Below, one piece after another: positions 3,759 through 25,568 of a stretch of 35,669 bases of DNA. The notes under the pieces are model-generated. The model ran no database searches and had not been told where the DNA came from. It worked only from the letters and a program-made list of their open reading frames with translations. Position numbers and translations under genes: made by a program. Numbering within the stretch: position 1 is the first letter of the stretch; each line of letters begins with the position of its first letter. Origin of the DNA: Anaerolineales bacterium (GTDB lineage Bacteria > Chloroflexota > Anaerolineae > Anaerolineales > UBA4823); contig JAFGBV010000159.1 of NCBI GenBank assembly GCA_016932955.1, positions 1-35,669 of the forward strand, read 5' to 3'.

Positions 3759-3875
3759 TTTATGAGCAACCACTTGCACCCCCAACACTTTTGCCGTCTC
3801 GCATGAGTCATTAATTGCATACGTATCAATCCAATATACCTTTGCCGCTCATTGTTATCATACAAGGAGGCTCGT

Positions 3876-6800
3876 ATGAAACTCACTCTCCGACGTAATC
3901 CATTGTTGATCATTGCGGTGCTGCTGGGAGGCTTGGTTTTGGCTGCCGCCATCCCCAGCTTGGTAGCCGCCCGTTCCCTTCCCATCTATGAAAAACATAC
4001 TCTCGCCGACAATATCCCAAATGTGAACGATTTGGCTGCAGCCGATATTGACGGCGATGGCAACCTGGATGTGCTGGGTGCTTCTCTCGCCGCGGACACC
4101 GTGGTGTGGTGGCAAAGCGATGGCACTCCCGGGGATGGTGGATGGCTAACCCATACCCTCACCTCGACACTGAATGGTGCATCTAACCCCCTTGCGGCAG
4201 ATATCAACCGTGACGGGAAGGTGGATATCTTTGCCAATGGTTATTTCGGGGAATATGTCTGGTGGGAAAATGATGGCACATCGGCTGTGGAAAACTGGAG
4301 CACACATATCATTACAGATGTGAACCAGGATCTGAGCTCGGCCTGCCTCGAAGATCTGGACGGGGATGGCGATCTGGATGTAGCAGGCGCGCTGTTCAAT
4401 GACAATCTATATGATGTGCTAGACCTGATCTGGCTGGAAAATATTACCGGTGAGGGCACTAACTGGAGCCAGCATGCAATTACCACAACATTTCTAATGG
4501 CTTTTGCCCTCTTTACGGCAGATGTGGACGGTGATGGCGATGCCGATATGATTTCCGACTCGTCTGCCCCAGGGCTGATCTGGTGGGAAAACAGCGCTGT
4601 CGATGGCAGTGTGTGGAGCGCGCACACGATATTAAGTCACAGCTTCAGCCACGCTACTTCCCTCGGTGATGTGGATGGGGATGGTGACGTGGATATTCTG
4701 GGAAACGATCACCGCGATCAAGAGCAGGCTTTATGGTGGGAAAACAGCGACGGCGCTGGAGGAACCTGGATCGAGCATACGATTGATTCCTCCCACGATT
4801 ACACATGGGTGGTGCGTGCCGCCGATCTGGACCAGGACGGCGATCTGGACGCGCTGGGCTATACGCCCTATGGCGATGATCTCGTCTGGTGGGAAAACAC
4901 TGCCGGCGATGGGGCAGCCTGGGCAGAGCATATCGTGGAAGAGAATTTGGATGAGCCGAGTGCTGTTTTTGCGGTAGACCTGGACCTGGACGGGGATCTC
5001 GATCTGCTGGGGTCGGAAGACGGAACAACCGAGCAGGTGTGTTGGTGGGAAAACACAGCTATCCACCGCAATGCCGCCTACACCGCCAGCGAGGTGATTG
5101 ATGCGGCGCTGCCGGTGTGGGATGTCAGCACGGCGGATGTGGACGGCGATGGCGACCTGGATCTCCTCGGCGCGGCCACAGATCACACCACGCCGACCAA
5201 TGGCTGGCTCAGTTGGTGGCGCAATGTGGATGGCGCCGGCTCAGCCTGGACTGAGGTTCCGGTTCTGGTGGATGGGCTGGACGGTGCGGTGGCGGTGCGC
5301 GCCGGCGACCTGGATGATGATGGCGATATGGACCTCCTGGCGGCTGGCTGGCAGGAGGATGACGTTGCCTGGTTTGAGAATGATGATGGTCTTGGCGACT
5401 CGTGGACGCGTCACGATTTGATCACCACGTATGACGGCGCTTACACCGTGGCGATTGCCGACGTGGACGGCGATGGCGACCTGGACGCGCTGGCAGGGGG
5501 TTCAGAGAATGCCACTATTTCGTGGTGGGAAAACAACCGCACCGATACCGGCTGGGCTGAGCACGTGGTCCACTACGAGCACGCCCACATCATCCGCAAA
5601 ATCGAAGTGGCAGATGTGGATCGGGATGGCGACGTGGATGTGATTGGGGTTTCCAATGGCAAAGGCTATGTGGCATGGTGGGAAAATGACGCCGCCGGCA
5701 CGTTTTGGACGCGCCACTACATTTCCGGTGGGCTGGATGCCTTTCCCTCGCCTCAATCGGCGCATATTGGCGATATGGACCGTGACGGTGATGTGGATGT
5801 GATTGTTTCAAGGAATGCCGAGGGCCAGGCCCCGGTCGATTTGGTCTGGTTTGAAAACGATGCCAGCGACACCTGGACGATGCACACCATTGCCGATCAG
5901 TTCTTCAGCGCCGATGGCGTATTTGCCACGGATCTTGATCAGGATGGCGACCTGGATGTGGTAGCCGTGCTGCCCTCAGAAACACAGATGGCACTGCGCT
6001 GGCTCGAAAATACTGCTGGCGATGGCAGCACATGGGTTGCCCGCGATTTGGCGCTGCCCTTCTACGGGCGCAACCTGACTGCCGCTGATATCGACGGCGA
6101 TGGTGCCATTGACATCCTGGGTGCCAATCATGACCTCGACCAACTGCTACTCTGGCGCAACCTGGGCGGGCAGTTTGCCCTGGCAACCGCCGATACCACC
6201 CCCGCTGGCGGGTTTCTGCCTGGCCAGATGGAGGATATGCTGAGCATCCAGGTCACCCACAACGGGCGCACTGGCGACCATGATGCGGAACTGGCAACCA
6301 TCGAGCTGCTTTTCGAGTCCAGCCCCGGCAACCCGCTGACCACCGCCGAAGCCAATGCCTTGATAGACGAGCTGAGCGTTTACCTGGATACCGGCTCAGG
6401 AAATTTCGACCCGGCAGTCGACACCCTCGTCACCACATTAGAGCAGTTGGACCTGACTCTTGGCGTCCAAAGCCTGACCCTGCCCGATGGTGCGGAAAGT
6501 GTGCGCGTGGTTCATGGCGCGCCCAGCCTCTTTTTCATCGCCCCCAGACTGACAGCCGATGCCAACCAGCAAACTCCCAGTCAGTTCCGCATCACCCACC
6601 TCACCGAAGCGAGCACTTCCGCTGAGGATTGTGAGGTCGATGTGCCATTGCAATTGGAATATGCAGCCAATACTACCTCCGGCACCATCACGCTGATCAA
6701 CCATGCGCCGAACGCCCTCGACGACACCCCTGCCACGGATGAAGATACTCCCCTGGTGATCCAGGTCACGCTCAATGATACCGACGAGGATAACAACCCC

Positions 6801-7826
6801 CTGGCAGTGATCAGCGTTACCCAACCGCTGAGTGGCAGCGCCGTCATCAGCGGCACGCAGCAGGTTCTGTATACGCCTGAGCTGAACTACAACGGCGCTG
6901 ATTCGTTTTTCTATACGATTTCAGATGGGGTTCTGACGGATACTGCCACGGTGAATCTGACCGTGCTGCCAGTCAATGACCTGCCCGAAGTCGATGCCGG
7001 TGCGGACCGCTTTGCTCAGGAAGGGGGTGTGGTGATCTTCTCCGGCGCATTCACCGATCCAGATAGCGGTCAAAGCCATACGATTGAATGGGACTTTGGC
7101 GATGGCGGTACTGCCTCCGGTGAGTTATCACCCAGCCATACCTATCTGGACGATGGCGTTTATCCGGTTAGCCTCACCGTAGACGACCAGGAAGGCGGCA
7201 TAGTCAGCGATACGCTGCAGATAACCGTATCCAACGTGGCTCCTGCGCTCAGCCTGGGCGGAGCAGCCAGCCTGAATGAAGGCGCTGTGTATACGTTGAC
7301 CCTAAGCACTGTTACAGATCCGGGAAATGATACGCTCACCACCTGCACCGTCCATTGGGGGGATGGGGCAACCGCCTCTTGCCTGCCAGCCATTGGTGGC
7401 AGCCTGGGTCACATATATGCCGATGGGCCTGCTGACCGCACGATCTGGGTTGATTTGGAGGATGAGGATGGAGAATATCTCGATGTGGACAGCCTGGAGG
7501 TCAGCCTGCAAAACGTGGCCCCTGTGGTGGATGCGGGAGCAGACCGGCAAATCGACATGGGTGGGTCGTTGATGATAATGGCGTCATTCATCGACCCTGG
7601 AGAGGATACCCACACCGCCACAATTGATTGGGGCGATGGGGTGGTGGAGCCTGGGCTGGTTGATCAACTCGCAGGCACAGTCTCAGGCAGCCACCAATAC
7701 AGCCAGCCGGGCAATTATACCGTGACCATCACCCTGGAAGACAGCGATAGCGCACAAAACAGCGACACCTGCGGCGTGACGGTTAATCCACTTCGTGTGT
7801 TCCTGCCCCTTGTCACGCGCCATTAA
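3876..7826 (+). CDS. Large secreted protein: 14 FG-GAP/VCBS repeats, cadherin-like and PKD domains
   Basis: A 1316-aa exported protein. The start at 3876 is chosen for AAGGAGG five bases upstream; an in-frame ATG at 3852 would add eight residues before the basic signal-peptide start. A signal peptide covers residues 1 to about 34. Residues about 56-755 hold 14 copies of a roughly 52-aa unit built on a DxDGDGDxD calcium loop followed by a WW(E)N strand, typical of FG-GAP/VCBS beta-propellers. Then come an unassigned beta-rich stretch (about 760-940), a cadherin-like 'tandem' domain (about 942-1038, with DEDTP and LNYNGADSF), three PKD-like Ig domains (WDFGDG, HWGDG and DWGDG), and the tail VFLPLVTRH. 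No catalytic motif is visible. A role in adhesion or carbohydrate binding at the surface is inferred from architecture only. Confidence 0.88.
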   Translation: MKLTLRRNPLLIIAVLLGGLVLAAAIPSLVAARSLPIYEKHTLADNIPNVNDLAAADIDGDGNLDVLGASLAADTVVWWQSDGTPGDGGWLTHTLTSTLNGASNPLAADINRDGKVDIFANGYFGEYVWWENDGTSAVENWSTHIITDVNQDLSSACLEDLDGDGDLDVAGALFNDNLYDVLDLIWLENITGEGTNWSQHAITTTFLMAFALFTADVDGDGDADMISDSSAPGLIWWENSAVDGSVWSAHTILSHSFSHATSLGDVDGDGDVDILGNDHRDQEQALWWENSDGAGGTWIEHTIDSSHDYTWVVRAADLDQDGDLDALGYTPYGDDLVWWENTAGDGAAWAEHIVEENLDEPSAVFAVDLDLDGDLDLLGSEDGTTEQVCWWENTAIHRNAAYTASEVIDAALPVWDVSTADVDGDGDLDLLGAATDHTTPTNGWLSWWRNVDGAGSAWTEVPVLVDGLDGAVAVRAGDLDDDGDMDLLAAGWQEDDVAWFENDDGLGDSWTRHDLITTYDGAYTVAIADVDGDGDLDALAGGSENATISWWENNRTDTGWAEHVVHYEHAHIIRKIEVADVDRDGDVDVIGVSNGKGYVAWWENDAAGTFWTRHYISGGLDAFPSPQSAHIGDMDRDGDVDVIVSRNAEGQAPVDLVWFENDASDTWTMHTIADQFFSADGVFATDLDQDGDLDVVAVLPSETQMALRWLENTAGDGSTWVARDLALPFYGRNLTAADIDGDGAIDILGANHDLDQLLLWRNLGGQFALATADTTPAGGFLPGQMEDMLSIQVTHNGRTGDHDAELATIELLFESSPGNPLTTAEANALIDELSVYLDTGSGNFDPAVDTLVTTLEQLDLTLGVQSLTLPDGAESVRVVHGAPSLFFIAPRLTADANQQTPSQFRITHLTEASTSAEDCEVDVPLQLEYAANTTSGTITLINHAPNALDDTPATDEDTPLVIQVTLNDTDEDNNPLAVISVTQPLSGSAVISGTQQVLYTPELNYNGADSFFYTISDGVLTDTATVNLTVLPVNDLPEVDAGADRFAQEGGVVIFSGAFTDPDSGQSHTIEWDFGDGGTASGELSPSHTYLDDGVYPVSLTVDDQEGGIVSDTLQITVSNVAPALSLGGAASLNEGAVYTLTLSTVTDPGNDTLTTCTVHWGDGATASCLPAIGGSLGHIYADGPADRTIWVDLEDEDGEYLDVDSLEVSLQNVAPVVDAGADRQIDMGGSLMIMASFIDPGEDTHTATIDWGDGVVEPGLVDQLAGTVSGSHQYSQPGNYTVTITLEDSDSAQNSDTCGVTVNPLRVFLPLVTRH

Positions 7827-12029: not shown

Positions 12030-13556
12030 GTGAGAAAAAGATTCATGTTCGGAATTTTGGCACCTGTTCTGATTATCGGCCTGACGATGGGGACAGGCAT
12101 GGCACAGGATTCCCCGCCGGCAGAGGCGGCGACCTTAGGTTTGGATACCCGCTGGATCATCGAAGAGGTGGATACCGCTACCCAGACGGGCGGCTACACT
12201 TCGATCGTGGTCGATAATATACCCTATATTGCCTATTACAACTTCACCGATGGCGATCTCTACCTGACCAGCCCCGTAGAGCCTGGCGAGGGCAACTGCG
12301 GCCCGTCCGATAACTGGGACTGCCGCACGGTGGACACCCAGGGCGATGTGGGCAGGTATACTTCGATCGATATATATCGGAGTTCCACAATCCTGGGCTC
12401 CTGGAAATTAGGTATCGCCTATCATGATGCAACCAATCACGCGCTCAAGCTTGCGGAGTATATCTGTTACCCCCTCATGGGTTGTGATTGGTTTTTCACA
12501 ACCATCGATTCGGGGGGGGGCGGAGATGTCGTGGGAACCTATGTTTCCTTCGTCTATGACGATAGTGGCAAAGGGCATATTGCCTACCAGGCTTTTGACT
12601 ATGGATCCGCCTGGGATTTTTATGATTTGCGCTATGCGCACGAGGTGGGCAGCGGAGGCACCGGCTGTGACATGGGTATCACTGACTGGCAGTGTGATAC
12701 CGTACAAATAGCTCTTGCAAATAACAGCACCAATGGCTTCCCAGGGATCGATCTTACGCTGCTGTATTTTGGCAATTCCACCACTCCGACTCCGTTCATC
12801 GCTTACTATGATTCACCGCAGAAGAGTGATCCTACGCTCGGCGGCAACCTGAACCTGGCGTATTTTGTCAACCAAAGCGGCTCCGGTTGTGAAATTGGCC
12901 CTACCTGGCAGTGTGACGCCATCGAAGGCACGGATCCGAATCCAGAGATCGATACCGGGCTGAGCCCGCAGATCTATATCCAAAAAACTGGGAGTGAGTA
13001 TTACACCAACATCTTTTACTATGATAAAGCCAATGGCGCATTGCGCTGGGCGCGGGCAGCCAGTCTCTACCAGGGTGCTGAGGCCAACTGCGGCCCGATT
13101 GAGGGCTTTAACCAGCAGTTATGGCGCTGCGACGATGTGGATACGCTCTTAGCGGGGTGGGTGGGTGGTCCAGCTATTTCCCTGGCTCTGGATGAGGCGG
13201 GATACCCGGTGCTGGCTTACCAGAGCGCTAATGATGATCTAGCCCCCTCCAGCCTCGAAATGGCCCGGCCCGCCGGCAGGGCTGGGGTGAACTTCGGGAT
13301 TGGCAACTGCGGAGACCCTCTCCCCTCTCCCGGCATGCTCTTTTCCTACTGGCAGTGTGAGATCATCGATCAAGGCGGTGGTCAGGTTGGCTCTATCGAT
13401 GAGGCGAACTTCACTGCAGTGGGGGTCGACAGCGATGGGCTGATCACCATCGGCTATGAAGAATCCGATGACTATGATGATCCTGAGGTTGATATCCTGA
13501 AGGTGGCTTACCAGGAGCAGTATTACACGACAGCCATGCCAATCGTGATCAAGTGA
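12030..13556 (+). CDS. Secreted repeat protein with six cysteine-pair motifs (probable beta-propeller)
   Basis: A 508-aa exported protein starting at GTG 12030, with AAAGGAGG seven bases upstream. A signal peptide ends near MAQDSPPA (about residue 27). The body repeats a unit of 60-80 aa with two landmarks: a strand of the type IAYYD..N..L.LA, and a cysteine pair of the type C-x(5-14)-W-x-C followed by acidic residues and an (I/V)D or similar. Six Cys pairs are visible (GNCGPSDNWDC, CYPLMGCDW, CDMGITDWQC, CEIGPTWQC, NCGPIEGFNQQLWRC and NCGDPLPSPGMLFSYWQC). The tail is YTTAMPIVIK. I recognise no named family. The periodic strands suggest a propeller pinned by one disulfide per blade, and export makes disulfides plausible. 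Confidence 0.8.
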   Translation: MRKRFMFGILAPVLIIGLTMGTGMAQDSPPAEAATLGLDTRWIIEEVDTATQTGGYTSIVVDNIPYIAYYNFTDGDLYLTSPVEPGEGNCGPSDNWDCRTVDTQGDVGRYTSIDIYRSSTILGSWKLGIAYHDATNHALKLAEYICYPLMGCDWFFTTIDSGGGGDVVGTYVSFVYDDSGKGHIAYQAFDYGSAWDFYDLRYAHEVGSGGTGCDMGITDWQCDTVQIALANNSTNGFPGIDLTLLYFGNSTTPTPFIAYYDSPQKSDPTLGGNLNLAYFVNQSGSGCEIGPTWQCDAIEGTDPNPEIDTGLSPQIYIQKTGSEYYTNIFYYDKANGALRWARAASLYQGAEANCGPIEGFNQQLWRCDDVDTLLAGWVGGPAISLALDEAGYPVLAYQSANDDLAPSSLEMARPAGRAGVNFGIGNCGDPLPSPGMLFSYWQCEIIDQGGGQVGSIDEANFTAVGVDSDGLITIGYEESDDYDDPEVDILKVAYQEQYYTTAMPIVIK

Positions 13557-15443: not shown

Positions 15444-15854
15444 CTATTTCCCGAAAAACGCGCTGATTTTTCCCCACAGCGGAGGCCCCAGGATTAGCAG
15501 CCCGATCATCATCGACGCCACTGCCGCGATCAGCACCGCCGCCGCGCCCACATCCTTGCCGACTTTGGCCAGGGCGTGGTGCTCGTTGTGGCTTGCCAGG
15601 TCCACCACCGCCTCCAGCGCCGTGTTGAGGAATTCGGCAATCCACACGATCGCAATAGCCAGGAAGATCACTGCCCAATCGCGAGTCGAGATGCGCAGCC
15701 ATAGCGAAACGATGATCACAGCCACGCTGACCACCGCATGGATCCATGCGTTGCGTTGGGTGCGGATGACATGCCACCAGCCAGAGAAGGCATAACGGAA
15801 AGATCGCCCTCTCGAGATAAAAAAGCCGCGAATTTTTGAAACAATCGTGGTCAT
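15444..15854 (-). CDS. dgkA: Diacylglycerol/undecaprenol kinase (DgkA family)
   Basis: A 136-aa integral membrane kinase with three hydrophobic helices and the family signature EFLNTALEAVVD followed by AKVGKDVGAAAVL. In bacteria without an E. coli-type lipid cycle, this family usually phosphorylates undecaprenol for cell-wall carrier recycling. The start is placed at 15854 because its ATG overlaps the ybeY stop as ATGA, implying translational coupling; an in-frame ATG at 15875 lies inside ybeY. Last gene of the mtaB-dgkA run. Confidence 0.93.
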   Translation of the reverse strand: MTTIVSKIRGFFISRGRSFRYAFSGWWHVIRTQRNAWIHAVVSVAVIIVSLWLRISTRDWAVIFLAIAIVWIAEFLNTALEAVVDLASHNEHHALAKVGKDVGAAAVLIAAVASMMIGLLILGPPLWGKISAFFGK

Positions 15855-16300
15855 AGTTGAGGGCGGATGGCGCATCCGAGCAGTGCTAGCACGGCGTCCT
15901 GGGCAGCTTGCATGCGCTGCTTCTCAGCATCTTCTCCGTGATCATACCCGAGCAGGTGCAGTAAGCCGTGTACTGCCAACAGTTGCAGTTCGTCTGCCAG
16001 CCGGTGCTTGCCCGCCTCAGCCTGGGCGCGGGCGCGCGGCAGCGAGATCAGCACATCCCCCAGGTAGAGGGCGCCAGTTTCCGGGTCTTTTTCCCCCGCG
16101 GCAAAAGAGAGCACATCTGTAGGCGCATCGATGCTGCGATACTCCAGGTTGAGTTGTTGGAGCAGCTCATCGTCTCCGATCACTAATGTGGCCTCTGCTG
16201 CCTCGTTACCCGCAAAAGCCAGCGTCTGCAGGGCAGCCTGCTCCAGCAGTGCAGGATCGACGGGGAGTTGAAGGGGGGGATTAATTTGCAGGTTGATCAT
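15851..16300 (-). CDS. ybeY: Endoribonuclease YbeY (rRNA maturation factor)
   Basis: A 149-aa metalloenzyme for 16S rRNA 3' processing and ribosome quality control. The zinc motif HGLLHLLGYDH is intact, with the three histidines in the usual spacing, preceded by DVLSFAAGEKD and LGDVLIS. The start at 16300 (MINLQINP) gives the typical family length; the upstream in-frame ATG would add 38 residues of shadow sequence inside the upstream gene. It overlaps the upstream HD-domain gene by 20 bp and dgkA by 4 bp. The order HD phosphohydrolase, ybeY, dgkA is the classic one also seen in Firmicutes. Confidence 0.96.
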   Translation of the reverse strand: MINLQINPPLQLPVDPALLEQAALQTLAFAGNEAAEATLVIGDDELLQQLNLEYRSIDAPTDVLSFAAGEKDPETGALYLGDVLISLPRARAQAEAGKHRLADELQLLAVHGLLHLLGYDHGEDAEKQRMQAAQDAVLALLGCAIRPQL

Positions 16301-18440
16301 GGGGTGGGGTTTCCATCCCCTGGGTAGCTCCTTCGGGCAGCGCAGGCGCTTGGCCTGCTGGCAGCGCGGCATCCTGGGCCAGGCTTGGGTAAGCAATGCG
16401 TGGGTGGTAAACACCGCGCAGGGTGGCGATGAAGGATTCCTGGATCAGCGCTAACTCGCGCAGCGTTAAGTCGGAATCATCCAACTGCCCGCTATCCAGG
16501 CGATTCTTGATCACGGTGCGGATCAGTTCTGCCAGCTCGTATTCGTCGCGCGGTTGTTCGGCGCGCATGCGCGCTTCGCATCCATCTGCCAGCATCAGCA
16601 GGGCAGTTTCGCGTGAGCGCGGGCGCGGGCCTGGGTAACGGAACTTCTCGATATCCACGAGGCTCTCATCGTCCCCAACCGCCTCCGTCGCCCGCGCATA
16701 CTGGTAACGGGTGATCATCGTACCATGGTGCTCGAGAATAAAGTCCTGGATGCGCGAGGGCAGGCGATACTTGCGCGCCAGCTCTATCCCATCGCGCACA
16801 TGACGCAGGATGTTGGCCGCGCTAACCTCCGGATCCAAATCGTCGTGAGGGTTCACGTTGCTGACCTGCTGGTTTTCCACAAAGTAAAAAGCGTTGGCTG
16901 CTTTGCCGGCATCGTGGTAGAGCGCCCCCACCCGTGCCAACATGGCATCAGCTCCGATGCGTTCTGCAGCCTGTTCCACCAGGTTGGATAACTGCAGGCT
17001 GTGCTGGTAGGTGCCAGGAGCGTTGCGCAAGATGAATTGCAACAGTGGGTGATCAGGCCGTGAAAGCTCGATCAGTTGCAGGTTGGTTGTGCGGTCAAGC
17101 AGTTGAGCCAGGAAATAATGCAGCACCAGGCTGATGCCCGCTGAAACCATGCCATTCACCACTGCCGCGGCTGCCAGTGTGGCCAGCCCTACCCAATCGG
17201 CAGAGAGTTTTTGCAGGTGATAGACGGAGGTCACCAGCGCCCCCGAAACGGCAATCGCTGCACCCGCCCAAAAGAAAGAAGTCACATGTTGGGCGCGGCG
17301 CAAGGCCAGGATGCCAAAGATCCCGCTGAGGGTATAAAAAACAATCAGGTCTACCGCATAGGGCAGGTTGAAGGCACTTAAGACTGCCAGTGGAAAGAGG
17401 GTGGCGATTGTCAGTTCTGCCCCATATAAGGCTGCAATCGTTAGGCCGTATGCCATAATCGGAAAAGCGAAAGGCAGCACGGTATGCTCCGGAATGATCA
17501 GGCGGGCAGATACCAGAAATACCAGCCACAGGGTGGTAAGGATGGTGATGGAGCGCAAATGATGATCAAAGAACCCTAACCTTGTGGCGCGTTGCAGGTA
17601 TGCGATGAGGAAAGCACTGCTAACGATGGTGAGTATAATGGCGCTGGCAGTATCCTGCCAGCGGCTGGCAGGCTGGGCCAGCCCATATTCTTGCAGCGCT
17701 TCAAGGTCGGTCTCGCTGATCACCTCGCCGCGCTTGACGATCGTCTCATTGCTCAGGAAAGTCCGCACCACGGGGGGGGTGTTCTCGCGTGCCTGCTGGC
17801 GGGCGGCTTGTGTCATTTCCTCGTTGTATATGCTGTTAGGCGCTACAAAAGCCGTCACCAGCTCGGCGACGATCAGCGCCTGATCTTCCGACAATGAAAG
17901 GCTGACCAATGTGGGCACGCTACGACGAGTATCTTCGACCCGGTTCTCGCGAATGGTATTGCGCATCACCTGCTCGAGCACGATGATGGCTTCCTGGCTC
18001 ACCGCCTGCCAGCGCAGATCGCTCATCTCCAGGATGGCCAGTGCGGTATCGTGTTTGATCTCGATATCCTCTAAAGCGGAAAGATCAGCCATTTTCTGAT
18101 CCTGCGTGGCATACAGATCAGCGCGCACACTGATAATGAATGCCAGGGCAGAGCGCAGGCGCTCTAGTTGTTTACGGGCAATATTCGTATCGGGGGTAGT
18201 GTAAACAGGTGCTAAGGCATCTGCTGCCGCCTGGCGCTGAATCTCGGTCAGAATCTGGCTTTCGTAAGAGTAGGGATAGGGCGCCTGGATATCGTAAGGC
18301 GCTACTTCTCCCACCTGCAGCGGGTTTTGCGTCTGGTCTGCTACCTGCGGGTAGAGCAAGGCAAAGAGAACGACCGCGTTGAACAGCAGCAACAGGGCCG
18401 CCAGAAAAATTGTGCGCCGGTTGAACAGCTCTTTGTTCAC
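16281..18440 (-). CDS. pgpH: 7TM-HD phosphohydrolase, PgpH-type c-di-AMP phosphodiesterase
   Basis: A 719-aa membrane enzyme. One N-terminal membrane helix (about 10-32) is followed by an extracytoplasmic 7TMR-HDED domain (about 50-260), a block of seven membrane helices (about 265-480), and a cytoplasmic HD domain (about 500-650). The HD domain has HSLQLSNLVEQAAERIGAD, YHDAGK (the HD pair), ILRHVRDG and ILEHHGT as metal ligands. Characterised members hydrolyse the second messenger c-di-AMP; that specificity is inferred from family and gene neighbourhood. Translation starts at GTG 18440 with a weak upstream GGGATGG. The C-terminal 30 residues are Pro/Ala-rich. It is 11 bp after yqeY. Confidence 0.9.
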   Translation of the reverse strand: MNKELFNRRTIFLAALLLLFNAVVLFALLYPQVADQTQNPLQVGEVAPYDIQAPYPYSYESQILTEIQRQAAADALAPVYTTPDTNIARKQLERLRSALAFIISVRADLYATQDQKMADLSALEDIEIKHDTALAILEMSDLRWQAVSQEAIIVLEQVMRNTIRENRVEDTRRSVPTLVSLSLSEDQALIVAELVTAFVAPNSIYNEEMTQAARQQARENTPPVVRTFLSNETIVKRGEVISETDLEALQEYGLAQPASRWQDTASAIILTIVSSAFLIAYLQRATRLGFFDHHLRSITILTTLWLVFLVSARLIIPEHTVLPFAFPIMAYGLTIAALYGAELTIATLFPLAVLSAFNLPYAVDLIVFYTLSGIFGILALRRAQHVTSFFWAGAAIAVSGALVTSVYHLQKLSADWVGLATLAAAAVVNGMVSAGISLVLHYFLAQLLDRTTNLQLIELSRPDHPLLQFILRNAPGTYQHSLQLSNLVEQAAERIGADAMLARVGALYHDAGKAANAFYFVENQQVSNVNPHDDLDPEVSAANILRHVRDGIELARKYRLPSRIQDFILEHHGTMITRYQYARATEAVGDDESLVDIEKFRYPGPRPRSRETALLMLADGCEARMRAEQPRDEYELAELIRTVIKNRLDSGQLDDSDLTLRELALIQESFIATLRGVYHPRIAYPSLAQDAALPAGQAPALPEGATQGMETPPHDQPAN

Positions 18441-18451
18441 GCCATCCCAGT

Positions 18452-18895
18452 TTACTGCAGTGCTCTGCGCACTGCCTGGCTTGCCTGGTCGCCTGTGGCG
18501 CGCCCTTGCAGGTGCGGCATCAAGACCTTCATCACTTGTCCCATCTCGCGCATCGAGGTGGCGCCGGTTTCCTGGATGGCCTGTTTCACCAGGACTTCCA
18601 GTTCTTCATTTGAAAAGGCCTTGGGAAGGAAGGCTTCCAGCACGGCGATCTCGTTTTCTGCCGCTGCCACCAGATCGCTGCGCCCGGCGCGTTCCGCGTC
18701 AGCAATCGACTCGCGTCGTGATTTCACCTCTTTCTGTAAGATTCCCATCAGACCGGATTCGTCCAGCGACTGGCCTTTTTCAACTTCAGCAAGCTGGATT
18801 GCAGTGAGCGCCATGCGCAGGGTATTCTTGCGCGTGGTATCCCCAGCACGCATGGCTTCTTGGAGAGAATTGCGTAATTGTGATTTAAGGTCCAT
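18452..18895 (-). CDS. yqeY: GatB/YqeY domain protein
   Basis: A 147-aa protein that matches the YqeY family in full: N-terminal MDLKSQLRNSLQEAMRAGD, then KEVKSRRESI, AFLPK and a C-terminal tail-like domain with MGQVMKVLMPHLQGRATG. The domain is shared with the C-terminus of the GatB amidotransferase subunit and is thought to contact tRNA; the role of the free-standing protein is not settled. It sits 6 bp after the HIT gene and 11 bp before the HD phosphohydrolase. Confidence 0.94.
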   Translation of the reverse strand: MDLKSQLRNSLQEAMRAGDTTRKNTLRMALTAIQLAEVEKGQSLDESGLMGILQKEVKSRRESIADAERAGRSDLVAAAENEIAVLEAFLPKAFSNEELEVLVKQAIQETGATSMREMGQVMKVLMPHLQGRATGDQASQAVRRALQ

Positions 18896-18901
18896 TTCCT
18901 T

Positions 18902-19246
18902 TTATCCAACGGGGTAGCGCATGTGACGCCCCCCAAGCAGGTGCATGTGCAGGTGGAAAACCACCTGCCCGCTATCGGGCCCGGTATTCACGATCAGCCT
19001 GTACCCGCTTTGCTGAATACCCTCTTGTTCGGCAATCTGCCGCGCCACAGTAAAGAGCTTGCCCAGCACTGCTACGTGTTCTGCTGTGGCTTCATTCACC
19101 GAGCCAATATGCTGGTTGGGTACGATCAGAATGTGCACTGGCGCGGCAGGGTGGATATCCTGGAATGCGGTAATGCTTTCATCCTGATATACAATCTTGC
19201 CGGGTTGTTGCCCAGCGATGATCTTGCAGAAGGCACAATCTGTCAT
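18902..19246 (-). CDS. HIT-family nucleotide hydrolase (HINT branch)
   Basis: A 114-aa histidine-triad protein. The catalytic motif HLHMHLLGG is at the C-terminal end, with the HINT-type N-terminus DCAFCKIIAGQ and HILIVPNQHI in the middle. CxxC in the first residues may bind zinc, as in many HINT proteins. The family hydrolyses AMP-linked phosphoramidates; the physiological substrate is unknown. The gene has no clear Shine-Dalgarno site and follows mtaB by 24 bp. Confidence 0.94.
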   Translation of the reverse strand: MTDCAFCKIIAGQQPGKIVYQDESITAFQDIHPAAPVHILIVPNQHIGSVNEATAEHVAVLGKLFTVARQIAEQEGIQQSGYRLIVNTGPDSGQVVFHLHMHLLGGRHMRYPVG

Positions 19247-19270
19247 TAAGGCTCTAGTCTTTCTGCGCCA

Positions 19271-20569
19271 TCAGGCGGGTGTAAAGAGTATTTCGCCATA
19301 TAGCCCGTCTGGCAGTTGGCGGGTCAGCCGAACGGGAGTGATTTTGTTCCAGAGAGGTGTGCTCGCCCGCGCAGCAATGCGCAGGTAGTTGCCGGTCAGC
19401 CCGCTCAGCGCCCAATCCTGCTCACCCTGGGCATTGACGCTTTCCCACAGCACCTCCATTTGCTGGCCCACAAAGCGGGACTGGTATGCCTGCGCAGCCT
19501 GCTTGAAAACCTGCCGCATCGCCGCATTGCGCTCTTTGCGAACGGAGTGGGGGATTTGATCCGGCATGCGCGCTGCAGGAGTACCAGGACGGGCAGAATA
19601 CGTGAATACATGCCCGTCGGCAAAGCTCATCTGGCGCACAAATGCCAGGCTTTCCGCAAACTCACTGTCGCTTTCGCCGGGGAAGCCGACAATGATATCC
19701 GTCGTCACTGCCAGGTCTGGGATGGCCGCGCGGGCAGCCTCAACCAGGCTGGCGTAGTGCTCAGGCGTGGTCTTGCGCGCCATACGGCGCAGCGTGGTTG
19801 GGCAGCCAGACTGCAACGGCAGGTGCAGGTGGCGGCAGAGCCGGGGATTTTCCCATAGGTTAAAAAAATCCTCATCCAGGTTCCAAGGTTCCACGGAAGA
19901 AAGGCGCAAGCGCGGCACCTGGCTCTTAGCCAGCGCCTCTTGCACCAATGCTTTGAGCGATTGCGCCGGCTCCAAGTCTGCGCCCCATGCGCCCAGCTGC
20001 ACACCCGTGAGCACGATCTCCTGCGCGCCTCCCTGGCAGGCAGCCCGGATATCCGCCAGGATTTCAGACGTGCTGAGGCTGTGAGCGAGCCCACGTGCCA
20101 GGCGGGTGATGCAGTATGTGCAGTGCTCGTTGCAGCCATCCTGTGCTTTGATGAAGGCACGCGTTCGTAATCGCGCACCGGGGAGGGGCGTGCGCACAGT
20201 GTATTCCAGATCGAGATCACCCGCTGGGCGCTGCAGGACGATGGGCGCTAACTGGTCTTTGTGGGCATTTTCAATCACCCGGCTCACACCCGGCAGCGCC
20301 AAGGCTTCCTCGGGGTTCAGACTCGACCAGCACCCCGTGACGATGATCTGCCGGTTCTCAGCCGAACCCAGACGGCGGGCTGCCTGGCGGATTTTCTGGC
20401 GCGAGTCAGATGCCGCCGCGGCGGTGACGCTGCACGTGTTCACTACTACCATGTCAGCCAGCCGGGCGTCATCGACCAGCATATGGCCAGCTGCACGGAA
20501 CTGGCGCCCATAGCGCTCGATCTCGCTCTGGTTCAGGCGGCAACCAACCGAATCCAGGTAGATTTTCAT
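19271..20569 (-). CDS. mtaB: tRNA t6A37 methylthiotransferase
   Basis: A 432-aa radical-SAM enzyme that converts t6A to ms2t6A at position 37 of ANN-decoding tRNAs. An N-terminal UPF0004 domain carries the three cysteines for the auxiliary cluster (VGCRLNQSE, NTCSV, TGCWS). The radical SAM motif is CNEHCTYC (CxxxCxxC), and a C-terminal TRAM domain binds tRNA. GCRLNQ plus the short N-terminus favours MtaB over MiaB or RimO. The start at 20569 (MKIYLDSVGC) is conserved; in-frame codons upstream run through an intergenic hairpin. No Shine-Dalgarno site is evident. First gene of the run to dgkA. Confidence 0.93.
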   Translation of the reverse strand: MKIYLDSVGCRLNQSEIERYGRQFRAAGHMLVDDARLADMVVVNTCSVTAAAASDSRQKIRQAARRLGSAENRQIIVTGCWSSLNPEEALALPGVSRVIENAHKDQLAPIVLQRPAGDLDLEYTVRTPLPGARLRTRAFIKAQDGCNEHCTYCITRLARGLAHSLSTSEILADIRAACQGGAQEIVLTGVQLGAWGADLEPAQSLKALVQEALAKSQVPRLRLSSVEPWNLDEDFFNLWENPRLCRHLHLPLQSGCPTTLRRMARKTTPEHYASLVEAARAAIPDLAVTTDIIVGFPGESDSEFAESLAFVRQMSFADGHVFTYSARPGTPAARMPDQIPHSVRKERNAAMRQVFKQAAQAYQSRFVGQQMEVLWESVNAQGEQDWALSGLTGNYLRIAARASTPLWNKITPVRLTRQLPDGLYGEILFTPA

Positions 20570-20589
20570 GCTAGCAACTGAGAGAAGCA

Positions 20590-20621
20590 GGGTGTCGGCG
20601 GCGCTTATGCAGCCAACACCC
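20590..20621 (-). terminator. Hairpin between the lipoprotein gene and mtaB
   Basis: In minus-strand RNA, GGGUGUUGGC pairs with GCCGACACCC (one G-U pair; loop of 12). There is no U-run, so it may be a weak terminator of the kinase-lipoprotein transcript or may attenuate readthrough into mtaB. Confidence 0.4.
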
Positions 20622-20648
20622 CACCACTCTAGAATTTCAGGATGATGC

Positions 20649-21287
20649 TTAAGGCTGAAGCACCTTGAAGTTATCGAAGTGGATGTCTGTGCCGGGGGTG
20701 TCGTAGGTGCCCGCAATCAGACCCACATCACCGGATGACCATTCCGAATCGCTTTGTTGGGCTAATTGTGTGCCATTGACGTATAGGGTCAGCGTTGAGC
20801 CAACGCAATCCAGGCGGATGGTGTTGAGCGCGTTACCCTGTGCAATTGCATCACTGTATGGCAGTTCCGTCATACCCAGCAGCTCCTGCGAGGCGTCCTT
20901 CACTTTGGCAATCCCGTAATAACCATCGCTGCTGATGATGCCATAGTAGAAGTTGCTCTCATCCTGGTAGCGGCAGATCACACCGAAATCGTTGTCATCC
21001 ACACCGCCCACCTTCGTCGCCTCAACTTCAACCCGCACATCGCTGAAGTTCAGGCCTGGATTAGCCCACACATCCATCTGAGTGGTATTGACCAGGATGC
21101 GGTAAACGCCGTTCTCATAATCGGTGATCCCATCATCCACGCGCACCGTATCCCAGCCGCTGCTGCTGCTGGAAAAGTCATCCTGAAACAGAACACCTGC
21201 TGGCAGGGTGGGGCTGCTCCCGCCGCAGGCAAGAATCGCCAGGGTCAGAACGAACAGCATCGCTAAAAAACCGAAATTCTTTTTCAT
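20649..21287 (-). CDS. Lipoprotein with kinase-sensor-like domain (second copy)
   Basis: A 212-aa lipoprotein: signal peptide ending in ILAC (lipidated Cys21), a short linker, then one beta-rich domain (about 32-212). The domain matches the extracytoplasmic end of the upstream kinase along its whole length: DDFSSSSSGWD, DDGITDYENGVYRI, VEVEATKVGG, GVICRYQD, ISSDGYYGIAK, LTLYVNG, SGDVGLIAGTY and FDNFKV. The overall pattern resembles a concanavalin-like/LamG or DUF1080-type jelly roll, without a visible catalytic site. Two cysteines (in GVICRY and LDCVG) are kept in all three copies and could form a disulfide. The start at 21287 has a good AAGGAG site. Confidence 0.85.
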   Translation of the reverse strand: MKKNFGFLAMLFVLTLAILACGGSSPTLPAGVLFQDDFSSSSSGWDTVRVDDGITDYENGVYRILVNTTQMDVWANPGLNFSDVRVEVEATKVGGVDDNDFGVICRYQDESNFYYGIISSDGYYGIAKVKDASQELLGMTELPYSDAIAQGNALNTIRLDCVGSTLTLYVNGTQLAQQSDSEWSSGDVGLIAGTYDTPGTDIHFDNFKVLQP

Positions 21288-21319
21288 ATCAATTCTCCTT
21301 TTTTTGTGAAATGATTCGC

Positions 21320-21994
21320 CTATGGCTTGGTGACAATAAAGTTATCAAACAGCACATCTGCTCCGGCTTCGTCATATGTGCCAACGATTATGCCCACATC
21401 TCCAGAGGTAAAGCTGCTGTCTTTCACATCTGCCAGCGTTTGCCCGTTCGCGATCAACGTCAGGTTGTCGCCTCGGCACTCAACCCGCAGATGATTCAAC
21501 ACGTTGCCAGTTTTGACCACCTGGTCATTGAATTGTAAAGTTTCCATCCCCACCAGGCTTTCTTCGCCATTTTGGAACTTGCCAATCCCGTAATACCCAT
21601 CACTGCTGATGGTCAGGAAGTAGAAATTCTCATTGTCGCGATAACGGCAGATGATGCCCAGATCATTTTCGTCCGGGCCGCCAACCTTGGTCGCATCCAC
21701 TTCGATGATCACATCGCTAAAGTTCAGGCTGGGGGTGCTCCAAAAATAGGTGTTGGCGATGTTCACCAGGATACGGTAGGAACCATCCTGGTAGTCATTG
21801 GTGCCTTCCGCATCCTGGATGCGATCCCAACCACTGGAGGGGTTGGAGAAATCATCCTGGAAGAGCAGCTTTTGTGAGGGGATATCCTGGCTATCGCCTT
21901 CCCCAAGCGGCAGGCTGATTGCTTGGCAAGCCAGCAGGCCAAGGCACAAGATAAGTAATAGGCATCGAAAACCAGTGGGCTGTTTCATTAGCAT
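21320..21994 (-). CDS. Lipoprotein with kinase-sensor-like domain (first copy)
   Basis: A lipoprotein of 224 aa from the ATG at 21994; alternatives are ATG 21988 or 22000 and GTG 22006. GGGTGGAG lies six bases before 21994. The signal peptide ends in GLLAC, then a short linker leads to the same domain as in the kinase and the next gene: DDFSNPSSGWD, IIEVDATKVGGPDENDLG, IICRYRD, ISSDGYYGIGK, SGDVGIIVGTY and FDNFIV. It begins about 25 bp after the kinase stop and ends 32 bp before the next lipoprotein gene, so the three are almost surely one transcript. Ligand unknown. Confidence 0.84.
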   Translation of the reverse strand: MLMKQPTGFRCLLLILCLGLLACQAISLPLGEGDSQDIPSQKLLFQDDFSNPSSGWDRIQDAEGTNDYQDGSYRILVNIANTYFWSTPSLNFSDVIIEVDATKVGGPDENDLGIICRYRDNENFYFLTISSDGYYGIGKFQNGEESLVGMETLQFNDQVVKTGNVLNHLRVECRGDNLTLIANGQTLADVKDSSFTSGDVGIIVGTYDEAGADVLFDNFIVTKP

Positions 21995-22018
21995 CCTCAT
22001 CTCCACCCAACATCAGCG

Positions 22019-23971
22019 CTAAGGTTGCGCAATGTAGAAATTGTCAAACAAGATATCGCTGCCGTAATTGTTGCTGGAGGTGCCAACCAACAGGCCAACA
22101 TCGCCATAACTCAGATCGGAATCCTGAGCCTGGGCTAGCAGCATATTGTTGGTGTAAAGTGTGAGGGTTTCGCCGATGCAATCAGCGCGCAGGTAATTGG
22201 TCGTTGCACCGCGGTGGATGATGTCGCTGTAATACATCGTGTCCATCTGGATCAGTGTGCTGCTGCCATTGATTACTTTGCCGATAGCGTAATAGCCGTC
22301 GCTGCTGATGATCAGGTAGTAGAAATTATCGGCATCTACCAGACGGCATAAGACGCCCAGGTAGTTATCATCCGGCCCAGCGGCCTTGGTAGCATCCACC
22401 TCAATAATCACATCATCGTCGTAAATACCAGGGGTCGCGTAAAGCGATGTATCTGGCACATTGACAAAGATGCGGAAAAAGCCATTCTCGTAATCGGTGA
22501 TGCCGTCATCACCGCGGTAGGTTGACCAGCCGCTGCTGGGATCAGAAAAATCATCCGCAAAGGTAAATAAACCTAAAGTCGGGACGGGCGTGGATAACGG
22601 CTGTAGATTTTCGGTTGGCACCATGCCCAGTATTTCTGTGGGTTTGACGCCCGGATCTATTGGCGCCGAGGCTTCGATGATCGCCCCCAGCCCAAGCAAA
22701 CCGCCCAATCCGCCAACGAAACCAAGCGTGATGCAGCCGATGATGGCCAGGATCACCAACCCGCTCATTCCCAGCCAGAACAGCCAGCCGCGTTGTTTCT
22801 TGACCGGTCTCATTGGATAAGCGCCGGGGATTGCCCGCCCCTGCATGGGAGTATTGGGCGGCGGTGTGAAATGAGGCTGCCCGATGGGCGGCGGAGGCGT
22901 GCCTGGTCTGGCAGCTTCTCTTCCCGCTTGGTCGGTCCTCTGCGGCGCAATGCCAGCCGGTGGTGGAGGCGTCAGCGGGCGCGCTTGCACCATCGCAGGA
23001 TGGCTGTCGACCACTGGCCTGACGCTTGCCTTTTGCTCGGCGCTGACTGGTGGTGACGCTTCTTGCGCAGGCGGTTGGCTGGGGAGGGGGATGGGTGTGG
23101 CTGGTGGTGGGGGCGCTACAACAGGCTTGCTCTCCCGTCCACCTTGCGCCGTTTCGGCGCGCAGGCTGATTCCTTCCAATACGCGTGCCATCTCTGTGGC
23201 ATTGGGGAAGCGTTTATCGCGCTCTTTTGCCATTGCCCGCGAGATCAGGTTCTCGCACTCAGCTGGAAGATCGGCTTTAACCTTCAAGATGCGCGGCACC
23301 GGCTCGATCAAGTGCTTCATTGCTACACCCATCGGTGTAGTGGCCTCGTAAGGCTGCTTGCCGGTGAGCATCTCGAATACGATCGCCCCCAGAGCGTAGA
23401 TATCGCTGCGGCTGTCGATATCCGGGTCCCCGCGCGCCTGTTCAGGGCTCATGTACGAGGGCGTGCCAATCAATCCATCGCCGGTGAGGGCTACAGTAGC
23501 CTCGGCAATGCGCGCGATGCCAAAGTCGGAGAGATAGGCATTGCCATGCTGGTCAAACAGGATATTGGCGGGCTTGAGGTCGCGGTGAATGATGCCCTTG
23601 GAGTGCACGTAATCCAGCGCGGCTGCCAGGCGCGAGAAGATCTGGCTGGTTTCACTGATGGATAGGGGGCCATCCTTCAGTCGCTGCGAAAGCGAGCTGC
23701 CGGTCATATAGCGCATCACCAGGTATGGTTGTTCGTTTTCTTCGCCAAAATCATATACTGGCACGATACCCGGATACTCCAGCGCGGCGATGGTTTGCGC
23801 CTCACGCTCAAAGCGCGCCCGAAAGGTGCTTTCGTGGATAATGGCGGCTGGCAGCATCTTGATGGCAACATCCCGCTTAAAACGCGGATCATGTGCCTGG
23901 TAGACGGTAGCCATCCCGCCCCGGCCTAGTTCGGCAATGACCTCATAGCGGCCAATTCGTTCTGGGTTCAT
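22019..23971 (-). CDS. Transmembrane Ser/Thr protein kinase with extracytoplasmic sensor domain
   Basis: A 650-aa Hanks-type (PknB-like) receptor kinase. Residues 8 to about 270 form the kinase: glycine loop GRGGMATVY, Lys38 (VAIK), catalytic H129-R130-D131 (HRDLKPAN), DFG 149-151, and activation segment to SPEQARG. All catalytic residues are present. A Pro-rich cytoplasmic linker (about 275-395) precedes one membrane helix (about 396-430). The C-terminal domain (about 470-650: DDFSDPSSGW, EVDATKAAG, GVLCRLVD, ISSDGYYAIGK, SYGDVGLLVGT, LFDNFYI) lies outside the membrane and is duplicated in the two following lipoproteins. No PASTA repeats, so it is not a peptidoglycan-type PknB sensor. No Shine-Dalgarno site; see the -10 at 23979. 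Confidence 0.95.
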   Translation of the reverse strand: MNPERIGRYEVIAELGRGGMATVYQAHDPRFKRDVAIKMLPAAIIHESTFRARFEREAQTIAALEYPGIVPVYDFGEENEQPYLVMRYMTGSSLSQRLKDGPLSISETSQIFSRLAAALDYVHSKGIIHRDLKPANILFDQHGNAYLSDFGIARIAEATVALTGDGLIGTPSYMSPEQARGDPDIDSRSDIYALGAIVFEMLTGKQPYEATTPMGVAMKHLIEPVPRILKVKADLPAECENLISRAMAKERDKRFPNATEMARVLEGISLRAETAQGGRESKPVVAPPPPATPIPLPSQPPAQEASPPVSAEQKASVRPVVDSHPAMVQARPLTPPPPAGIAPQRTDQAGREAARPGTPPPPIGQPHFTPPPNTPMQGRAIPGAYPMRPVKKQRGWLFWLGMSGLVILAIIGCITLGFVGGLGGLLGLGAIIEASAPIDPGVKPTEILGMVPTENLQPLSTPVPTLGLFTFADDFSDPSSGWSTYRGDDGITDYENGFFRIFVNVPDTSLYATPGIYDDDVIIEVDATKAAGPDDNYLGVLCRLVDADNFYYLIISSDGYYAIGKVINGSSTLIQMDTMYYSDIIHRGATTNYLRADCIGETLTLYTNNMLLAQAQDSDLSYGDVGLLVGTSSNNYGSDILFDNFYIAQP

Positions 23972-23978
23972 TGTTATA

Positions 23979-23984
23979 ATTTTA
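23979..23984 (-). promoter_or_regulatory. Extended -10 box of the kinase gene, probably leaderless
   Basis: On the minus strand, TGCTAAAAT (extended -10 form TGnTAAAAT) ends seven bases before the kinase ATG, placing the transcript start at the start codon. It overlaps the end of the TPR gene's downstream gap, so the kinase could be made both from this promoter and by readthrough. Confidence 0.4.
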
Positions 23985-24000
23985 GCATAGGCGGAGAAAA

Positions 24001-25440
24001 TTATGGGAAGTAGTATAACATTAATCTATTTGCCTGGTCGGCGGTGTTTGTCCCAGGAGCAAGTGTTTGCGCCAGCTTCAGCTCTTCGAAGGCTTTGCTG
24101 CCATCGCCGCGGTAGAGATATACCAGGCCCAGGTACAGGTGAGCAGGCGCATAGGATGGGTCGGCTTCCAGGGCGCGGCGCAGGAAGCGCTCGGCGTTCA
24201 GGAAATCCCCCAGCATGCTCAGGGTTTTACCCATCACAGCTAACGACGCCGGATCGTCTGGCGAGAGCAGGATCGCCTGCCGGGCAGCGGGCAGCGCCAT
24301 CTGCCTGATTTGGATCTGCTGGCCTAATGCAAACTCAGCCAGAAGCCGCCAGTAAAAGGGGTCTCCAGGGGCCAGCGCAATTGCCTGGTAGTATGCTTGC
24401 TGCGCGCTCGCCAGGTTGCCCTGCTCGGTCAGCGCATGGGCAATGTCCACCTGCAAGGTCGGGTTACCAGGGTTTGTTTCAGCTGCTTTTTCCCAGTAGT
24501 GCAGGGCTTGCTGGTAATCTCCCTGGCGCTGCCAGTACACTCCCATCAGCGCATTGGCTGCCAGCGAATCGGGATCCAGCACAACTGCCTGCTCCAGCTC
24601 CTGCAAGCCATCCCCGCCTTCGTCGGATCCTGCTGGCTGGTGCTGACGGGCTTCACCCAGGAAAGCCCAGGCCTCTGCATAATCGGGGCGGATTAGCGTT
24701 GCCTGCCGGAAGGCTTGCAGCGCCAGTTCCCATTCACCCTGTGCAGCCAGCGCCTGCCCGACCGACAGGTGCATATAGGCAGGTTCTTCGAAAAGGCGCG
24801 CCGTATTCACCCGCCGCGTGATTTCACGACTGACCGAAGCGTAAGCTGGCTGAAACTCCGCTGCCTGCGCCAGGTAAGCCAACGAAGACTCCGGATCAAA
24901 GGCAGCCAGCATCATTCCCAGATGGTAGAGCGTTTCAGCATCTGTGGGCTGCAAGACCACCTGGGCTTTCAGGTCTTGAATAGCAGCCTGGTAGTCGCCG
25001 TGCTGTTCATAGAACGCCGCCCGCCGCGTGTACACCTGGGCGGATACGGCATTGGTTGTCAGCGCCTGCTCCCACAGGCTGAGCGCGGTTGTTTCGTCCC
25101 CTTCAGCTAGGTATGCATCGCCCAGTGCAAGGAAATGATCTGCAGAAAGAATTCCCAAAGCCGCAGCCCGTTCGATGCAGGCGGTTGCCATCTGCAGGTC
25201 GCCTCCCTGGAGGGCTGCCTCGCCAGCCATGATCCATAAATCTACCCGCCAGGGGGTGAATTCGGCTGCCCGGATGAGCAGATGGGCGGTAGCCAGTGGT
25301 GTCCCAGCCTGCATGGCGGATTGTGCATCTTCAAGCGCCTGGTGGGTTGTATGTGGCTGTGGCGATAGCTGCAATAAGGTCGTGAGTAAAGCAGCCATTA
25401 GGATGAGTACATAAGGTCGGGACTCTTGGGAGCGCCGCAT
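24001..25440 (-). CDS. Secreted or membrane-anchored TPR protein
   Basis: A 479-aa protein. A hydrophobic N-terminal segment (about 10-27) serves as signal or anchor. The rest is a ladder of about ten tetratricopeptide repeats, for example LGDAYLAEGDETTALSLWEQA, LGMMLAAFDPE, VGQALAAQGEWELALQAFRQA and LGLVYLYRGDGSKAFEELK. The repeats fill the protein to its last residues, so it is probably a scaffold for protein contacts with no enzyme domain. It lies 29 bp upstream of the Ser/Thr kinase on the same strand, so a shared role is likely but unproven. The start at 25440 has no Shine-Dalgarno site and a TATAAT box six bases away. Confidence 0.88.
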   Translation of the reverse strand: MRRSQESRPYVLILMAALLTTLLQLSPQPHTTHQALEDAQSAMQAGTPLATAHLLIRAAEFTPWRVDLWIMAGEAALQGGDLQMATACIERAAALGILSADHFLALGDAYLAEGDETTALSLWEQALTTNAVSAQVYTRRAAFYEQHGDYQAAIQDLKAQVVLQPTDAETLYHLGMMLAAFDPESSLAYLAQAAEFQPAYASVSREITRRVNTARLFEEPAYMHLSVGQALAAQGEWELALQAFRQATLIRPDYAEAWAFLGEARQHQPAGSDEGGDGLQELEQAVVLDPDSLAANALMGVYWQRQGDYQQALHYWEKAAETNPGNPTLQVDIAHALTEQGNLASAQQAYYQAIALAPGDPFYWRLLAEFALGQQIQIRQMALPAARQAILLSPDDPASLAVMGKTLSMLGDFLNAERFLRRALEADPSYAPAHLYLGLVYLYRGDGSKAFEELKLAQTLAPGTNTADQANRLMLYYFP

Positions 25441-25446
25441 ATGGTC

Positions 25447-25477
25447 ATTATAGCCCGAATCTCATCTACGGTGTAAA
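25447..25477 (-). promoter_or_regulatory. Promoter giving a leaderless TPR-protein transcript
   Basis: On the minus strand a perfect TATAAT (25447-25452) ends six bases before the ATG at 25440. TTTACA (25472-25477) lies 19 bp further up, a good -35 hexamer at slightly long spacing. The expected transcript start is at the start codon. Confidence 0.5.
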
Positions 25478-25491
25478 GTGTCTGCCGGGGT

Positions 25492-25505
25492 GTACCAAAA
25501 GGTAC
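25492..25505. promoter_or_regulatory. Candidate operator: GTACC-AAAA-GGTAC
   Basis: A perfect 5-4-5 inverted repeat in the divergent region between the TPR gene and the acyl-CoA dehydrogenase gene, upstream of both -10 boxes. Its position suits a dimeric regulator. Short palindromes also arise by chance. Confidence 0.25.
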
Positions 25506-25540
25506 TAAATCCAACAACTTTTGAGTGCTCCCTGCTGGGG

Positions 25541-25546
25541 TATAAT
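25541..25546 (+). promoter_or_regulatory. -10 box of the acyl-CoA dehydrogenase gene
   Basis: A perfect TATAAT with no convincing -35 box at 16-18 bp. It is followed by AAAAGGAGAAAC and the ATG at 25569, giving a normal leader with a Shine-Dalgarno site, unlike the divergent TPR gene. Confidence 0.5.
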
Positions 25547-25568
25547 TTTCCCCAAAAGGAGAAACAAC

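Follow-up and report, generated by a model that had tools for sequence, protein, structure and literature searches.

A receptor kinase and two neighbouring lipoproteins share one extracytoplasmic domain in an Anaerolineales bacterium

Introduction

The activating signals of bacterial receptor Ser/Thr kinases are mostly unknown. Here, we analyse 35,669 nucleotides of an Anaerolineales bacterium (Chloroflexota; assembly GCA_016932955.1, contig JAFGBV010000159.1; hereafter the window), in which a receptor Ser/Thr kinase gene is followed by genes for two lipoproteins, A and B, all three encoding a copy of one extracytoplasmic domain, D. How such kinases are activated is called an outstanding question in the abstract of PMC6069109.

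Among the closest described systems is a mycobacterial one: the sensor domain of the kinase PknH also occurs in free lipoproteins (LpqQ, LprH, LppH, LpqA; Rv3705c), and the passage of PMC4118811 that treats it describes a V-shaped cleft, suggested as the binding site of a small ligand, and two disulfides. As with PknH, a receptor kinase and free lipoproteins of the window have a domain in common; we claim no common family. That passage calls the PknH fold distinctive; no PknH entry was among the 50 matches listed for either D model, which excludes nothing. Unlike in the PknH account, which gives no gene positions in that passage, the window lipoproteins are encoded next to the kinase. The lipoprotein QseG, from the operon of the kinase QseE, binds the QseE periplasmic loop and activates QseE, but QseE is a histidine kinase and the abstract does not call QseG a sensor copy (PMC6075780). 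The GlnH-GlnX-PknG operon combines a Ser/Thr kinase with a putative ligand-binding lipoprotein, GlnH; unlike in the window, the signal goes through a separate transmembrane protein, GlnX, and the relevant passage describes no shared sensor domain (PMC8546545). In a passage of PMC11032199, a periplasmic DUF1080 (PF06439) domain, possibly related to D, is reported for Ser/Thr kinases of Planctomycetota; these kinases differ from the window kinase in phylum, the window D falls under the PF06439 cut-off, and the word lipoprotein is absent from the main text of that paper. Finally, CBM66 modules are described in a passage of PMC11002231 as parts of enzymes, and as binding fructan or xanthan. A kinase sensor shared with free lipoproteins (PknH) and kinase-regulating lipoproteins (QseG, GlnH) are thus already known; among open-licence papers, our literature search found no title or abstract opening describing D, its locus or the arrangement reported here.

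Results

A preliminary description of the window, made from the sequence alone, had placed the three genes on one strand and read the lipoproteins as free copies of the kinase sensor. The genes are indeed there, on the minus strand (Table 1), and the sensor domain recurs over its full length in both lipoproteins, with BLASTP identities over ~180 residues of 49% (kinase-A), 56% (kinase-B) and 55% (A-B). Chance similarity is ruled out by the pairwise E values, about 1e-61 to 4e-70 for a nominal database of 200,000 letters. The two cysteines said to be common to the three copies (75 and 131 of D) are invariant in 67 of 67 aligned sequences, these three included, and the window copies retain 46, 47 and 46 of 48 conserved positions. 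The motifs quoted earlier are present, save that E(V/A)DATK.GG is wrong for the kinase, which has EVDATKAAG, and for B, which has EVEATKVGG. In the models of kinase D and of A, the two copies modelled, D is predicted to adopt one fold, as had been supposed, a beta sandwich of glycan-binding type. The predicted structure has the CBM66 fold, at 20-22% identity to the CBM66 of Bacillus subtilis levanase (PDB 4azz, 4b1l, 4b1m); at the level of sequence, CBM66 is a candidate match by profile, at E about 0.005.

The kinase is of Hanks type (PF00069, 172.5 bits against a cut-off of 31.7; HRD and DFG by eye). Its best NCBIfam match is the PASTA-kinase PknB model NF033483, at 325.6 bits and under the cut-off of 450; no PASTA family is among its Pfam matches, and we do not class it as a PASTA kinase. 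The spacing of 25-32 bp given earlier fits the A-to-B gap (32 bp) and the kinase-to-A gap from one ATG (30 bp); the listed GTG start gives 12 bp, and the other two in-frame ATGs 18 and 24 bp. The length of the database copy of A (P0002), 222 aa, agrees with the 30-bp start. The upstream tetratricopeptide repeat (TPR) gene ends 29 bp from the kinase start. The gaps between the kinase and lipoprotein genes suggest co-expression. The promoter search returned 4 sites in the window for a shuffle mean of 3.1. By eye, TATAAT- or TAAAAT-like stretches lie a few bases 5' of the TPR and kinase starts (25400-25560; 23960-24040), from which leaderless transcripts of these genes might be read.

We examined the ancestry of the three copies in a tree built from 167 D domains, for which a D stretch had to reach 130 bits; the 240 proteins returned contributed only their kinase-bearing members plus three lipoproteins. 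The window kinase D falls in a clade of 27 (support 99/89) made of 25 kinase copies, a split copy from locus L138 and one long-branch lipoprotein. B groups with the lipoprotein of L001 and P0003/P0004 (100/99), and A with the lipoprotein of L002, P0069 and two of L142 (96/93). A kinase-domain tree (58 rows, quick method) groups the same kinases (25 rows; Shimodaira-Hasegawa-like approximate likelihood ratio test, 92; P0194 is not among the rows). The L138 copy was labelled lipoprotein-like in the first tree and kinase-D in the second, by our judgement; the kinases without D in the latter were found only through closeness to a D gene. A local triplication of the kinase sensor is rejected: the approximately unbiased (AU) test excludes a kinase+A+B clade (p 1.7e-5), and also A+B (p 0.001), kinase+B (p 0.0005) and kinase+A (p 3e-7). 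These tests used 49 hand-picked rows of the 167, L142_7036 being left out, and their p values are optimistic since the larger tree had already been seen. The trees thus show the three window genes to be separate lineages of old standing, and a recent local copying is excluded by the AU tests.

On the D tree the kinase label changes at least 11 times, 5 or more of them forced by supported branches, and in the kinase tree kinase-D proteins, which are PknB-like, spread over several distant clades; because of both, repeated fusion of D to kinases is the likeliest course of events. Comparison with relatives further suggests an old and widespread lipoprotein family from which the kinase borrowed D, not the reverse. 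A fusion of the window TPR gene with D was considered as a link and discarded: four TPR-D proteins match the window TPR protein at 21-29 bits, too weak against TPR in general.

D itself is common. The protein search with D, which took only lengths of 0.55-1.75 times the query and scored only candidates sharing most words, gave 6603 matches at E up to 0.001; because of the length limit, the many lipoproteins among them are no evidence on the commonest form. At E up to 1e-40, 27 of the 38 genomes in the family to which the relative G001 belongs have D, as do 234 out of a sample of 301 from its order; at E 1e-20, 54 of 301 sampled across the phylum have it. A genome-contig scan with a profile of three rows, two of them lipoproteins, confirmed 120 relatives, of which 80 were kept; the named ones agree with the phylum supposed in the preliminary description. 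The counts of D genes and of their neighbours come from 94 loci, namely the window, L001-L080 and L135-L147; they omit L148 and L149, which repeat L001 and L002, and the short L081-L134. In these 94 loci D is encoded by 92 genes of lipoprotein size, by 7 kinase fusions and by 10 other open reading frames (ORFs) of greater length; its usual form in the loci fetched is that of a lipoprotein of about 210-230 aa. A lipobox pattern test was passed by 67 of the 92, A and B included; the other 25 comprise 24 in which, by eye, a Cys comes behind a hydrophobic stretch, and the fragment of a frameshifted kinase in L138.

These lipoproteins have conserved neighbours of their own. Taking the nearest recognised gene within 1500 bp on the same strand, the upstream gene is a TPR gene in 53 of 92 cases, the downstream gene is that of a radical SAM protein which we take to be MtaB in 60, and both hold in 44 (8 had no room upstream, 3 none downstream). 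After MtaB, HIT, 7TM-HD and YbeY genes follow in a number of loci, and a divergent acyl-CoA dehydrogenase gene often lies 5' of the TPR gene. The order TPR - D lipoprotein - MtaB - HIT - 7TM-HD - YbeY recurs in Anaerolineae-type genomes (window 15851-25440; L001-L080), and the D lipoprotein often sits in a conserved TPR - lipoprotein - MtaB order in Anaerolineae-type Chloroflexota. In the window, the B-to-MtaB gap is ~79 bp (MtaB start by eye) and the MtaB-to-HIT gap ~24 bp.

Kinase genes seldom enter this order: one is the nearest recognised upstream neighbour of 5 of the 92 lipoprotein-size genes, and among these five, one kinase is on the opposite strand and one is upstream of the sensor piece of the frameshifted kinase itself. 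The kinase-D gene stands between the TPR gene and the lipoprotein in the window, L001 and L002; in L138 the order is kinase, D piece in another frame, D lipoprotein, MtaB. Four of the eight kinase-D genes examined are directly before a D lipoprotein, and the compact array of kinase-D and D lipoprotein recurs in close relatives. The kinase with two lipoproteins probably stands on one further contig (P0130, kinase; P0004 and P0069, lipoproteins), since all three list a longest contig of 13781 bases. The whole window kinase, run against 61 genomes related to G001, gave, among the matches listed, near-full-query matches only in G001 (69%) and G002 (61%), and a match in two pieces in G016. A kinase-D profile ranked G016, G001, G002 and G014 first among the matches listed in 400 genomes of the order, which adds little on rarity because four of the five profile rows came from those genomes; given the sampling limits of the searches and lists, the rarity of the kinase-lipoprotein arrangement is only a rough estimate. 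The preliminary description had made its interpretation depend on an enrichment of D beside kinases: no general enrichment is seen beside the lipoprotein, yet kinase is the commonest partner in longer D proteins (43 of the 120 listed out of 148, the window's own included; length band about 357-1137 aa). Other longer proteins join D to trypsin-like protease, TPR or zinc-ribbon parts.

Other arrangements were seen around D. Tandem D pairs occur in L044 (4504-6540), L034, L035 and L037, the L044 pair behind a trypsin-like protease domain, and D lipoprotein pairs stand end to end on opposite strands in L029, L041, L045, L048 and L055. In eight loci (L042, L043, L046, L051, L052, L058, L063, L066), MtaB is followed ~1.0-1.4 kb downstream by a kinase of a related subfamily. 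These kinases came up because they lie near D; a PD40 propeller-repeat match is above cut-off in three of the four scanned. Elsewhere in the window are a 508-aa ORF (12030-13556) with no Pfam match at E up to 1e-5 and a 1324-aa protein (3852-7826) with FG-GAP, PKD and cadherin-like repeats, probably surface-exposed.

Table 1. Features of the window, with positions and strand
Feature	Position	Strand	Remarks
Receptor Ser/Thr kinase, 650 aa	22019..23971	-	kinase domain, Pro-rich linker, one transmembrane segment, extracytoplasmic domain D
Kinase domain, residues 9-255	23207..23947	-	PF00069, E 1.4e-50; HRDLKPAN, DFG, GTPSYMSPEQA by eye
Likely transmembrane segment of kinase, about residues 396-424	22700..22786	-	by eye from translation
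Domain D of kinase, residues 470-650	22022..22564	-	CBM66-like beta sandwich (predicted)
Lipoprotein A, LLAC lipobox	21320..22006	-	domain D at 21323-21865
Lipoprotein B, ILAC lipobox	20649..21287	-	domain D at 20652-21191
TPR protein, N-terminal hydrophobic segment by eye	24001..25440	-	often upstream of D lipoprotein in relatives
Radical SAM protein, UPF0004 domain (presumably MtaB)	19271..20569	-	start by eye; often downstream of D lipoprotein
HIT-type protein	18902..19246	-	named by eye from what we take to be the histidine-triad motif; part of conserved gene order
7TM-HD protein (presumably PgpH-like)	16281..18440	-	part of conserved gene order
YbeY endoribonuclease	15851..16414	-	part of conserved gene order

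Discussion

The interpretation offered in the preliminary description stands in part: the fold and the compact array in close relatives support it. The derivation of the lipoproteins from the kinase sensor is not supported: in the fetched loci D mainly takes the form of a lipoprotein that has conserved neighbours of its own and usually lacks an adjacent kinase, and the window kinase D belongs to a clade of kinase copies. We tentatively favour, at somewhat less than even chances, the view that D was joined to kinases more than once, that the three domains share a ligand, and that the lipoproteins concentrate it or form mixed assemblies and so set the threshold of the kinase. Here and in a few relatives, a kinase-D gene from an old kinase clade directly precedes one or two D lipoprotein genes, and the gaps between them point to co-expression. 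All three D domains would recognise one kind of ligand, most likely a glycan, either of the envelope or extracellular, and domains of this type would associate with each other. The lipoproteins, which the TPR protein might hold in place, would concentrate the ligand or join mixed assemblies with the receptor, and this could determine how easily the kinase dimerises and autophosphorylates. A more specific form is unlikely, namely a like-with-like receptor complex of the kinase sensor and one or two lipoproteins around a shared envelope glycan on a TPR scaffold, the widespread lipoprotein being a signal-presenting subunit tapped several times by kinases through fusion.

Several observations weigh against this favoured view. 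Most D lipoprotein loci have no neighbouring kinase, so the first job of the lipoprotein is not to regulate this one. Three kinase-D genes are not before a D lipoprotein (L009, L143, L144), and a fourth ends at a contig edge (L022). Related kinase-D genes stand elsewhere in G023 and G014, where the 14 kb and 10 kb fetched contain no D lipoprotein, and because of these loci a kinase-D can do without an adjacent lipoprotein. In L138 (5821-7703) a change of frame near the transmembrane segment, either real or due to a sequencing error, separates the kinase from D; upstream of this kinase a search at E 1e-15 gave no TPR gene, and ABC-transporter-like ORFs are seen there by eye. Within the kinase clade, L078 is a lipoprotein-size copy on a long branch, and the 11 label changes do not tell gain from loss. 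The shared locus may reflect hitch-hiking in a conserved cluster, and since D also sits behind trypsin-like proteases and with zinc-ribbon parts, it is possibly a generic binder, not a signal sensor.

The strongest rival is the parallel use of one generic module, in which the kinase relies on its own D for sensing and the lipoproteins, together with the TPR protein, serve another purpose in the envelope; only history would have made the genes neighbours. This is quite possible, if doubtful: it agrees with the widespread lipoprotein locus without kinase, with the kinase-D genes at other loci in G014 and G023, and with the combination of D with kinase, protease, TPR and zinc-ribbon parts; it accounts less readily for the four loci where, within genomes of about 2-6 Mb, a kinase-D gene directly precedes D lipoproteins, though these loci may go back to one ancestral event. 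The lipoproteins could instead be decoys that bind the receptor's ligand and damp signalling, as membrane-anchored free copies encoded beside the receptor and keeping nearly all conserved positions might do; this seems improbable, and the decoy action would be a secondary role, as lipoprotein forms of D greatly outnumber kinase forms among the loci fetched (92 vs 7). Still more improbable, to our mind, is that D is an enzyme resembling 3-keto-disaccharide hydrolases (PF06439, DUF1080), the kinase reading its substrate or product. Against a PF06439 gathering threshold of 26.8 bits, A scores 24.8 and B 21.9 and kinase D has no listed match, yet the database copy of A carries a precomputed PF06439.19.

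A kinase sensor shared with adjacent lipoproteins offers ready material for ligand hunting and for a test of receptor tuning by free copies. It also draws attention to a TPR-lipoprotein pair, conserved and as yet without a name, in a group of bacteria that is largely uncultured.
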